Shown one piece after another: positions 5,346 through 42,213 of a stretch of 64,000 bases of DNA; the first letter of the stretch is position 1; every line of letters starts with the position of its first letter. A program made the position numbers and the translations under genes. A model generated the notes under the pieces. The model was not told the DNA's origin. It did no database searches and saw only the letters and a program-made list of their open reading frames with translations. This DNA is from Clostridiales bacterium (GTDB lineage: Bacteria > Bacillota > Clostridia > Saccharofermentanales > Saccharofermentanaceae), in NCBI GenBank assembly GCA_017551865.1, contig JAFZKB010000023.1, forward strand, positions 62,001 through 126,000, read 5' to 3'.

Positions 5346-5912
5346 ATGTACAAAGTTACTTTTAACGGAAAAGAAATCACGGTGAATACGGAAAGCTCTC
5401 TGTTCTCTCCGAAGGAGGCGGACAGAGGAACGCTGGCTATGCTCCGCCACGTCGAATTCAAAGATGAGGATAAGGTCCTCGATCTGGGCTGCGGCTGCGG
5501 CATCGTATCACTGGCCGCCGCTGCTTCTGGCGTGGCACCGGAAAACATCGTCCTTACAGATGTCGATGCTCTAGCGGTCGAGACCTCAAGAAAAAACATG
5601 ACACAAAACGGATTTGCCGGAGCGGTCTTCGTTACCGGAGATGCACTTTCTGCTGTGCCGGGATCCGACTTCAGCCTGATACTTTCCAACCCGCCCTACC
5701 ATACGGATTTCAAGGTGGCCAGGACCTTTATCGAGAAGGGCTTCAACCGTCTTTCTATCGGCGGGAAGATGTTCATGGTCACGAAGAGAAAAGACTGGTA
5801 TAAGAATAAACTCATCTCGATCTTCGGCGGCGTAAAGATATACGAGGAAGACGGGTATTTCGTCTTCGAAGCGCAGAAGAGATCGATGTCCTATGCAGGG
5901 AAAAAGAAATGA
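5346..5912 (+). CDS. Class I SAM-dependent methyltransferase, RsmC/MTS-like
   Basis: This 188-residue Rossmann-fold methyltransferase has VLDLGCGCG at residues 44-52 as the SAM-binding motif I, LTDVDALAVE as motif II, and SNPPYH at 114-119. The NPPY motif marks enzymes that methylate exocyclic amino groups of nucleobases or glutamine side chains. Its short length and layout match the small-domain MTS proteins related to the rRNA m2G methyltransferase RsmC. GGAG at 5332-5335 lies 10 nt before the ATG. A TATAAT occurs at 5315-5320, though without a good -35. It stands alone and converges on the tautomerase gene. Target RNA or protein is not evident. Confidence 0.85.
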   Translation: MYKVTFNGKEITVNTESSLFSPKEADRGTLAMLRHVEFKDEDKVLDLGCGCGIVSLAAAASGVAPENIVLTDVDALAVETSRKNMTQNGFAGAVFVTGDALSAVPGSDFSLILSNPPYHTDFKVARTFIEKGFNRLSIGGKMFMVTKRKDWYKNKLISIFGGVKIYEEDGYFVFEAQKRSMSYAGKKK

Positions 5913-5915
5913 GTC

Positions 5916-5953
5916 GTTGCATAAGAACGTGCTACCACGCTTTCTTATGCTTC
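5916..5953. repeat. Solitary 38-bp inverted-repeat unit with the geometry of the array at 28901-29149
   Basis: The arms GTTGCATAAGA (5916-5926) and TCTTATGCTTC (5943-5953) start 27 bp apart. TTGCATAAGA is the reverse complement of the right arm TCTTATGCAA of units 4 and 5 of the array at 28901-29149, and the 27-bp offset is the same. It lies between the ends of two convergent genes and overlaps the last codons of the tautomerase gene. It could also act as a terminator stem, but it lacks a clean run of T. Confidence 0.6.
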
Positions 5954-28867: not shown

Positions 28868-28902
28868 GGCTGTCTCACAAGGCAGCCTCTTCTTTGCTTT
28901 TT
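28868..28902 (+). terminator. Intrinsic terminator of the larBC operon
   Basis: GGCTGTCT (28868-28875) pairs with AGGCAGCC (28880-28887) around a 4-nt loop, with one G-U pair. A T-rich tract TCTTCTTTGCTTTTT follows. It starts 6 bp after the larC stop. Confidence 0.75.
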
Positions 28903-29149
28903 GTTATAAAACCAGTGGTTTGGCGTTTCTTATAACACTTTATAGGGAAGCCTTTTGTATAAGACCAATGGTTTTGCTTTCCTTATAACAATTTGGGAAA
29001 TGCCTGTGTTATAAGAGACTCAAAAAGTCCGATCTTATACAAAGGAATCTCATGTTTGTTGTTATAAGAGAATGCTTTTTTGTAATCTTATGCAAAGTCC
29101 CCCCTCTTTTGTTGTTATAAGAATGCGTTGCAACACATTCTTATGCAAA
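28901..29149. repeat. Array A: five 38-bp inverted-repeat units at 52-53 bp period
   Basis: The 28863-29286 gap holds no gene but a regular array. Five units run 28901-28938, 28954-28991, 29006-29043, 29059-29096 and 29112-29149, each 38 bp. Left arms resemble TTGTTATAAGA, right arms TCTTATAACAA or TCTTATGCAAA, and right-arm start minus left-arm start is 27 bp in all five. Linkers are 14-15 bp, so unit starts are 53, 52, 53 and 53 bp apart. Loops differ except that units 1 and 2 are alike (CCAGTGGTTT and CCAATGGTTT). Unit 5 is nearly a full palindrome through an inner GTTGCAAC. It lies between the convergent larC and ttdB-like genes. A 53-bp period is not a multiple of three, so it is not coding. 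Confidence 0.88.
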
Positions 29150-29229
29150 TTCCCCTTCCTTCAACCGCTTCCTCGCATGCCTTAGGCCCTCTTCGACGCC
29201 CCATTTGATGCATTCCCATAAAAGTAAAA

Positions 29230-29267
29230 GGGCTGCGCTCTTTGTTTTGAGCACAGCCCCTTCGTTT
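29230..29267. terminator. Bidirectional intrinsic terminator
   Basis: GGGCTGCGCTC (29230-29240) pairs with GAGCACAGCCC (29249-29259) with one mismatch. T-rich sequence follows on the plus strand (TTCGTTTTT) and on the minus strand (CTTTTACTTTTA). It can end transcripts from the ttd-like operon and any that read out of the array. Confidence 0.85.
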
Positions 29268-40120: not shown

Positions 40121-40241
40121 ATGTGCCTCCTAATATCAACTCAATTCACCGGGCGTGTTTTTTTCCCGGAAGGGTTTCTGCATATTAGACGAGGGTCCTG
40201 ATGAAACTGTTGCATTTTTCAAAAACCGACGCAATCATTTT

Positions 40242-40271
40242 TTGACAGTGCGGAAACGCGTCTGCTATCAT
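40242..40271 (+). promoter_or_regulatory. Promoter of the small membrane protein gene
   Basis: TTGACA (40242-40247) and TATCAT (40266-40271) are 18 bp apart. The resulting leader is about 105 nt. It ends in an inverted repeat ACGCAAA/TTTGCGT (40344-40350 with 40363-40369) that stops 2 nt before the AAAGGAG ribosome binding site (40372-40378). Confidence 0.65.
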
Positions 40272-40383
40272 GAGATTGGCAAACGAAAACTCTAGGCATT
40301 GGATATTTTTATTCATGCAGTCTTGAATCACTCTTTCTCTTACACGCAAATGCGCATTTTGCTTTGCGTCCAAAGGAGTCTCT

Positions 40384-40911
40384 ATGCGATTGGATGAACG
40401 GCATGACATGGTCAATAGTCTATTCGAGATCGAGCGGCAGAAGATCCCGTTCTTTGTTCGCATGACCCCTTTAAAGAAGAAGATCCTTAAGGCCCTGATT
40501 TTTACCTTTTCATTTATTGAGATGCTGATTATATGCTGGTACCCGCGCTGGTACGGAGCAGCAATCACAGATTATTCGAAACAATATGATGGCACCTTTG
40601 TCGTTTACAGGATAATCCCAAGCGGATACATATCCGCGATCATTATAGGTCTTCTTCCTTTTATTCCGATCCTCCTTTATATCTTCTTTGTTTATCTTTT
40701 TGAGAAAACAGCCTATTCCAACGCAAACCGCAAAGCCCTCGATCTGGCCGAAGACCGGCGTCTTCTCACCCTGGAGAAAGACAGAGAGCTGATAAGGAAA
40801 CTGAACAAGGACAAAACTGTCGGGTTGATCAACAAAGAAGAGGACGAGGAAGAAACCCTTCCTCCGGGACATTCCATAGAAGAAGAGATCGATAGTTTCT
40901 TCAGACGATAA
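40384..40911 (+). CDS. Two-pass membrane protein of unknown function
   Basis: This 175-residue protein has a basic N-terminus, a membrane segment near 36-55 (ALIFTFSFIEMLIICWY) and a longer one near 82-106 (SAIIIGLLPFIPILLYIFFVYLF). An acidic, charged C-terminal tail (RRLLTLEKDRELIRKL and EEDEEETLPPG) follows. AAAGGAG lies 5 nt before the ATG. No family is recognised. Its leader carries a stem right before the ribosome binding site, so translation may respond to structure. It stands alone between the DUF4349 lipoprotein gene and the convergent nuclease-like gene. Confidence 0.75.
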   Translation: MRLDERHDMVNSLFEIERQKIPFFVRMTPLKKKILKALIFTFSFIEMLIICWYPRWYGAAITDYSKQYDGTFVVYRIIPSGYISAIIIGLLPFIPILLYIFFVYLFEKTAYSNANRKALDLAEDRRLLTLEKDRELIRKLNKDKTVGLINKEEDEEETLPPGHSIEEEIDSFFRR

Positions 40912-40965
40912 AAATCAGGGCAATCAATTCTCGCCTTAAAATCCAGGACAGGCAAATTCCCCGCC

Positions 40966-41766: not shown

Positions 41767-41872
41767 GCCATCCTCCTTCTCACTGATCCGGTTTTGTCCA
41801 TCATATTCTCGACGCAGATCCGCGAACAATATGATATAAGCGTTATCTTGTTAACAATTGAGCTTTTTCTTT

Positions 41873-42213
41873 CATGGGAGCATCCACGTTCCGCTTATTC
41901 CCATGCCTCGTCTGGGATCGCTGGTCATGGGTTTTCTTGTTTTTCCGCTTTTCCCTTTCCCCGTTAGGAACCGCAAATCATGGGGATTCTTGTTTTGTTA
42001 TCTTCCCCATGCCTAAATTGGAGCCGTAAATCATGGGGATCTTCCAATCATCATCATTCCCATGCCGTAGTCGCCATGGGTTTTAACGATAATCATCTAT
42101 CCCCATGCCTTTTTGTCCTCCCTCAGTCATGGGAATTTCCTGATTCCGATTTTTCCCATGAAAAAGATCCGAAACAGCGTCATGGGTATTCCCTCTTTCC
42201 CCCGCCCTCCCAC
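41873..42213. repeat. Array B: seven 33-bp inverted-repeat units at 53 bp period
   Basis: Between the divergent nuclease-like and ABC permease genes lie seven units at 41873, 41926, 41979, 42032, 42075, 42128 and 42181, each 33 bp. The left arm is CATGGG and the right arm CCCATG, starting 27 bp later. Unit 2 has CCCTTT and unit 7 only CCCA at the right-arm place. Steps are 53, 53, 53, 43, 53 and 53 bp; the 43-bp step comes from one linker of 10 bp instead of 20. Loops are pyrimidine-rich and differ between units. Most linkers begin CC, and linkers 2 and 3 are alike (GGAACCGCAAAT and GGAGCCGTAAAT). Arm pitch is thus 26-27 bp throughout. No coding frame or known family fits. Confidence 0.9.

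Follow-up and report, generated by a model that had tools for sequence, protein, structure and literature searches.

The window, a stretch of 64,000 nucleotides of contig JAFZKB010000023.1 from a Clostridiales bacterium, contains two arrays of short alternating words, A and B, and an isolated unit at 5916-5953, which raises the question whether the three belong to one class of elements or whether a chance match accompanies two unrelated arrays. The initial annotation had assigned the arms of array A and a 27-bp offset to this unit, and proposed that all three follow a single spacing rule, while the arm sequence is free to change from array to array. The sequence and coordinates of the unit were correct: it reads GTTGCATAAGA-N16-TCTTATGC, with GTTGCATAAGA at 5916-5926 and TCTTATGC at 5943-5950, and its 9-bp inverted arms, spanning 5919-5950, are perfect. 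It is located directly past the stop codon of a methyltransferase-like open reading frame (5346-5912), ahead of an opposing gene. Array A (28901-29149) consists of five units with a period of 53 bp, which have half-site cores at 28906/28929, 28959/28982, 29011/29034, 29064/29087, and 29117/29140, and the polarity of the units reverses between types 3 and 4. In array B (41874-42186) ATGGG and CCCAT cores alternate at 26 and 27 bp, and the arms are unlike those of array A. The distances in both arrays were taken between the outer ends of half-sites, and measured in this way the arrays and the solitary unit share one geometry, the alternation at 26-27 bp. No intrinsic terminator (a GC-rich hairpin followed by a T run) was found inside array A or B, while terminator-like hairpins are present only beside array A. 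The features of the window are as follows:

5916..5953, no strand: lone unit of family A, GTTGCATAAGA - 16 bp - TCTTATGCTTC, most likely left by an array that collapsed
28868..28887, + strand: terminator-like hairpin GGCTGTCTCACAAGGCAGCC adjoining array A; copies of this dispersed repeat lie next to several A arrays
28896..29151, no strand: segment bearing array A, cleanly missing in the sister species, with 4 bp (CTTC) common to both edges
28901..28938, no strand: array A unit (TTGTTATAAAA - TTTCTTATAACA), type 5 by the order of the other copies
28954..28991, no strand: array A unit (TTTGTATAAGA - TCCTTATAACA), type 4
29006..29043, no strand: array A unit (GTGTTATAAGA - TCTTATACAAA), type 3
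29059..29096, no strand: array A unit (TTGTTATAAGA - TCTTATGCAAA), type 2
29112..29149, no strand: array A unit (TTGTTATAAGA - TCTTATGCAAA), type 1, which is the type of the solitary unit
29226..29263, - strand: terminator-like hairpin on the opposite side of array A
41872..41906, no strand: array B unit (TCATGGG - CCCATGC), cores at 41874 and 41900
41978..42065, no strand: array B units, cores at 41980/42006 and 42033/42059, TC type outer and GC type inner
42059..42080, no strand: the single short linker of array B, 17 bp, one helical turn less
42074..42189, no strand: array B half-sites, cores at 42076/42102, 42129/42155, and 42182

The hairpin GGCTGTCTCACAAGGCAGCC at 28868-28887 is a dispersed repeat in both this genome (G000) and the genome of the sister species (G021), where it has many sites. 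Beside the left gene of array B, the region 40224-40939, which contains a small open reading frame (40384-40911), is missing in the sister species.

The arms of the solitary unit are not rare when taken alone. Bare ATAAG-N18-CTTAT pairs arise by chance several times per genome, which is an argument for a chance match next to two unrelated arrays, and 49 such pairs were observed in this genome, compared to about 7 per strand expected by chance from a reversed-pattern control. However, the solitary unit has not only the arms and spacing but also the interior in common with the end unit of array A. Moreover, 13 of its 16 interior bases are shared with the end unit of the contig C5 array (ACGTGCTACaACGCaa), and the end unit of the C16 array also matches. 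By our own arithmetic (about 4e-6) the agreement with the C5 end unit is homology and not chance. Because its interior matches the end units of these A arrays, the solitary unit is a true member of family A despite its common arms. The recurrence of the patterns in this genome with empty controls, and the finding of arrays of the same geometry in congeners but none in shuffled sequence, also speak against a chance match, which is refuted and has a negligible probability.

Recurrence of the geometry in this genome and its relatives

To search for further elements, two degenerate patterns were matched genome-wide. The pattern TTATAAGA-N8..30-TCTTAT gave 27 matches, of which 26 had exactly N16, and the pattern TCATGGRN-N16..18-TYCCCATG gave 39, with no match to either control. 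The further elements anticipated by the initial annotation amount in this genome to roughly a dozen arrays of family A and twelve of family B, spread over many contigs. Several of the A arrays are homologous dispersed copies, in which five units follow in identical order, and near-identical ones are located at contig ends. Matches to the tandem B pattern numbered 96 in this genome, 107 in the sister genome, and 0 for the control, and in a search of 84,980 species the pattern was found in the sister MAG Tb.RUG.474, the Lachnospiraceae cow7.4 MAG, and Oceanobacillus indicireducens. Of 23 congeners, 5 contained the tandem ATAAG pattern of family A, which did not occur among the 165 genomes searched from the remainder of the order (control 0). 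The compared genomes are draft assemblies throughout, and the array counts of congeners other than this and the sister genome come from sampled stretches, except for those of the pattern searches. Viral contigs (IMG/VR) contained no match to family A, family B or the TTACCGCC family, and phage origin of the arrays was rejected on these grounds.

The B-like arrays of cow7.4 and O. indicireducens have unrelated surroundings, and yet they keep a regular 26/27 or 26/26 alternation. In cow7.4 (L198, L208) a conserved block of about 130 bp (CTCATTG..GCAATTCGTTAAGTRCCGACGCCTCACAGGG) precedes them, so the array there is part of a larger repeated element. O. indicireducens, a member of a Firmicutes class that is unrelated, has an array of alternating ATGGG-like words with a period of 52-53 bp (L197:3368-3708) near a trp operon with two T-box leaders.

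To detect arrays by geometry only, we scanned for any 5-base word and its complement, both recurring at 52-54 bp. In the window the scan returned array A, array B, and nothing else, and it was empty in 307 kb of shuffled sequence and in 206 kb from other genera. In sampled stretches of the congener G020 it returned TGGGGACTAAA-N16-TTTAGTCCCCA five times and TTGCATAAGG eight times, and in those of G018 it returned CTATAAG and TGGGAC arrays, while the few single-match clusters in the congener samples are background. Hence, other arms do occur at the same spacing, as had been supposed. A blind scan of periods 24-90 in 1.17 Mb of congener DNA gave clusters only at 53-54, 61-63, and 72 bp, and a scan without a fixed period gave the same classes, with arms that include TTACCGCC, ACTGTAA, CGACTTA, and TTCACCCGTAATC, and none in shuffled sequence. 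Besides the further arm families at 53-54 bp, there are thus families with periods of 61-63 and 72-73 bp. Alternating arrays were also found in other genera of the order, with periods of 60, 71, 84, and 86 bp, although some of these may be another kind of repeat. The spacing of 26-27 bp is one class in a wider family of alternating arrays, and the main periods of the genus are about one helical turn apart, a result that rests on some seventeen arrays because the periods inside one array are not independent. The proposal of a class defined by spacing is therefore correct in that the 26-27 bp class is real, but this is not the sole spacing in use. The arm word TTACCGCC/GGCGGTAA has a period of 84 bp in another genus and of 63 bp in G018 (L181:8100-8440, L224:6560-6900).

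Conservation and helical phasing of the half-sites

The sister genome is mostly about 93-97% identical to this one across the array loci. In seven orthologous B arrays only 1 of 410 core positions was changed, whereas outside the cores the same arrays had 125 changes in 1755 positions (P 8e-11). The core count covers half-sites as defined in either species of this one species pair; when the half-sites were defined in this genome only, 0 of 355 positions were changed. The flanks had 129 changes in 2994 positions, with an indel count inflated by end gaps. Interiors and linkers of these arrays drift, while their lengths hardly alter and the spacing is nearly free of indels. The half-site words of family B are under strong selection, and, contrary to the initial annotation, the arms do not change freely with each array but are fixed across families of about a dozen arrays. 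These data bear on the explanation that the arrays have no reader and are tandem repeats evolving neutrally, or mobile DNA in decay, which would agree with the free drift of interiors and with the loss or collapse of family A in the sister at those loci that were compared. Neutral repeats, however, would not protect 5-bp cores at a fixed spacing, and neither the core changes nor the phased linkers described below fit such an origin. This explanation is very improbable overall; it is refuted for family B, and it could apply to isolated relics like the unit at 5916-5953.

The distances in 24 B loci showed that the spacing inside the unit is 26 bp in 96 cases and 27 bp in 11, while the linkers between units are 27-28 bp (77 cases), 17 bp (21), 37-38 bp (11), and 25 bp (1). 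Hence, the spacing inside B units is fixed at 26 (27) bp, and the linkers step by about one helical turn. The linkers of three other arm families differ in steps of 10-13 bp, two of which are 12-13 bp and not 10.5. Exactly one 17-bp linker was present in each of the 14 printed B arrays with six or more half-sites, which could be inherited from a single ancestral B array instead of being selected each time.

The two half-sites of a unit are unlike. The half-sites of family B (consensus KCATGGGRAWT) are of a TC and a GC type, and units tend to hold one of each, with the GC type tending to face the 17-bp linker, an arrangement which is perfect in the array L130 and less clean elsewhere. The same rule was found in family A, with TTTGYATAAG and KTGTTATAAG as the two types. 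The identity of arms within a unit was below that of random pairing in family B (3.68 versus 4.44, sd 0.15) and in family A (3.24 versus 4.08, sd 0.21). Because the arms of a unit match less than by chance, the units are not selected as hairpins, and they have the appearance of paired, unlike half-sites in double-stranded form.

Folding predictions gave a mixed picture: hairpins are formed by the solitary unit and by the G020 arrays, the arms of which are near-perfect, while two A units did not fold better than shuffled sequences. The strong folding of some units, together with the inverted arms, could suggest that the arrays act as RNA, in the form of tandem hairpins recognized in the transcript. 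On the other hand, arms within a unit are anti-correlated rather than compensatory, linker steps of a helical turn are meaningless for RNA, and there was no Rfam match in the window or over the arrays elsewhere, so that this function is very improbable and largely refuted. A hairpin function in RNA or single-stranded DNA was rejected on the basis of the arm anti-correlation and the phased linkers.

The same foldings could also be expected if the arrays were a Gram-positive form of REP/BIME or REPIN elements, that is, hairpin-forming palindromes of alternating orientation that a RAYT-like Y1 transposase has spread. BIMEs consist of regularly spaced REPs in alternating orientation, are extragenic and species-specific, and also have solitary forms (PMC2817692). 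The arrays are like the BIME/REP clusters of Escherichia, Xanthomonas, and Pseudomonas in being intergenic, regular, and alternating, in having species-specific words, arrays as well as solitary forms, and random neighbors. They differ in that the GTAG or CGTC tag is lacking, the element is a pair of unlike half-sites instead of a hairpin palindrome, the spacing is phased to the helix, and the host genus is one of rumen Clostridia. A RAYT/Y1 transposase is not needed either: among four genomes that all bear arrays, Y1_Tnp (PF01797) has a single copy in G000 and none in G021, G018, and G020. Mobilization by RAYT was rejected because of these three genomes, and with arms that are less complementary than random pairs this origin is decidedly unlikely. 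By analogy, the arrays may work like BIMEs without being BIMEs. The sole Y1 transposase gene of G000 is located at C24:2121-2477 (L238).

Loss, collapse, and copying of arrays

The comparison with the sister genome showed that family A arrays turn over at several loci. The array A of the window is cleanly missing there, with 4 bp common to both edges; at the site of the C16 array both the array and the neighboring terminator are gone, again with four shared bases; and at the C28 site another terminator replaces the array and its terminator. At two further loci the sister keeps a single unit where five are present here (L111 for C5:30.5 kb, L112 for C24:120.8 kb). In the simplest reading of these alignments, family A would be ancestral to both species and in the course of being lost in the sister, with solitary units as the leftovers of collapse, while the alternative is a gain in this genome at individual loci. 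The near-identical A copies at contig ends suggest that some recent copying has occurred here too.

The site of the solitary unit has in the sister species a GAGGCTGCCTTGTGAGACAGCCTC terminator, of the kind that usually flanks A arrays, and a lone TCTTATGC. Given that the sister retains one unit versus five here at a further two loci, the unit at 5916-5953 most likely remained after a family-A array had collapsed, although the ancestral state of this locus is inferred and the counterpart site is itself degenerate. The solitary unit therefore belongs to family A, as had been claimed, but as a likely relic it does not provide independent proof of the spacing rule.

At two of the loci that are empty in the sister, 4 bp are common to both edges, as a target site duplication of a MITE-type element might leave, and it could be that the reader of the arrays is a transposase or recombinase, with the arrays as termini or miniature forms of its transposons and the half-sites as its binding sites. 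It is common for transposon ends to carry several phased binding sites, and some of the homologous dispersed arrays, which have shared flanks, are near-identical and located at contig ends. The boundaries, however, vary from locus to locus, and the 4 bp could be microhomology used in deletion. Furthermore, no transposase recurred among the neighbors that were scanned, and the B half-sites are kept in place in two species, as if they were useful there. Transposon ends are thus an unlikely explanation. Two different B arrays here (L117, L128; G000 C24, C28) have as neighbors the genes that in the sister surround a single B array (L120, G021 C20), which suggests a chromosomal rearrangement via recombination between arrays.

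A putative protein reader and comparison with known systems

The arrays were found between convergent, co-directional, and divergent genes, and a scan of their immediate neighbors showed ordinary genes with no recurrent family. A shared regulated gene or a linked reader gene was rejected on these grounds. The suggestion that each array has its own partner is compatible with these data, although no such partner was found among the neighbors scanned.

With a probability of about 0.62, we consider that the arrays are clusters of double-stranded binding sites for putative sequence-specific oligomerizing proteins, with one protein or variant per arm family. A unit consists of two unlike half-sites, each of about 11 bp, in facing orientation at a constant distance of 26-27 bp, or 2.5 turns, which puts neighboring half-sites on opposite sides of the helix. 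The units recur on one face, and linkers may lose or gain a full helical turn. On either side of the single short central linker of family B the units point oppositely, which gives the array as a whole a tendency to dyad symmetry. An oligomeric sequence-specific DNA-binding protein would impose protected words, the 2.5-turn spacing, whole-turn linkers, unlike half-sites, and dyad organization. The arrays are dispersed intergenically regardless of promoters; they would be copied or lost together with neighboring terminator-like sequences, and could collapse to one unit through deletion between half-sites. Since they stand between genes of every orientation, a role in promoter control is disfavored, and an architectural or BIME-like one is proposed. 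The protein that reads and oligomerizes on the arrays could form BIME-like nucleoprotein nodes between transcription units rather than regulate single promoters. It is a more tentative idea, and one that we do not favor over its negation, that these would be a new class of chromosomal architectural sites, in which oligomeric proteins of fast-changing specificity have their own helically phased dyad arrays, with a turnover so rapid that sister species keep B and discard A.

If binding by such proteins is correct, this genus of gut bacteria would have a large overlooked layer of intergenic sites, in which the geometry is conserved while the words change by species, as is expected from co-evolving DNA-protein pairs. 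The arrays would then be a Gram-positive counterpart of BIMEs without hairpins or RAYT transposases. Because family A is kept here but lost or collapsed in the sister, while B is kept in both, the two species provide a natural experiment, by which the reader protein could be found with comparative genomics.

A search of a limited open-access library did not return a description of this geometry, or in Firmicutes anything closer than BIMEs. The sopC centromere of the F plasmid consists of 43-bp repeats, each with an inverted ParB-type site, and plasmid centromeres of this type are like the arrays in having tandem repeats of about 4-5 helical turns with an inverted pair of half-sites in each. 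In contrast, the arrays are dispersed on the chromosome by the dozens, have many arm families, and have no adjacent partition genes that were seen. In AraC-type operators, such as the RhaS/RhaR sites, inverted half-sites are about 16 bp apart, similarly to those of the arrays, but these operators are single and linked to promoters, while the arrays have at least five units and are placed regardless of promoters. The arrays also resemble CRISPR arrays in their short repeated words, regular spacing, and variable sequence between the words. The scan of the immediate neighbors listed no Cas families. CRISPR, however, has direct repeats of 23-50 bp and acquired spacers, whereas the word here is 5-11 bp long and alternating, and the interiors are inherited with point changes between species.
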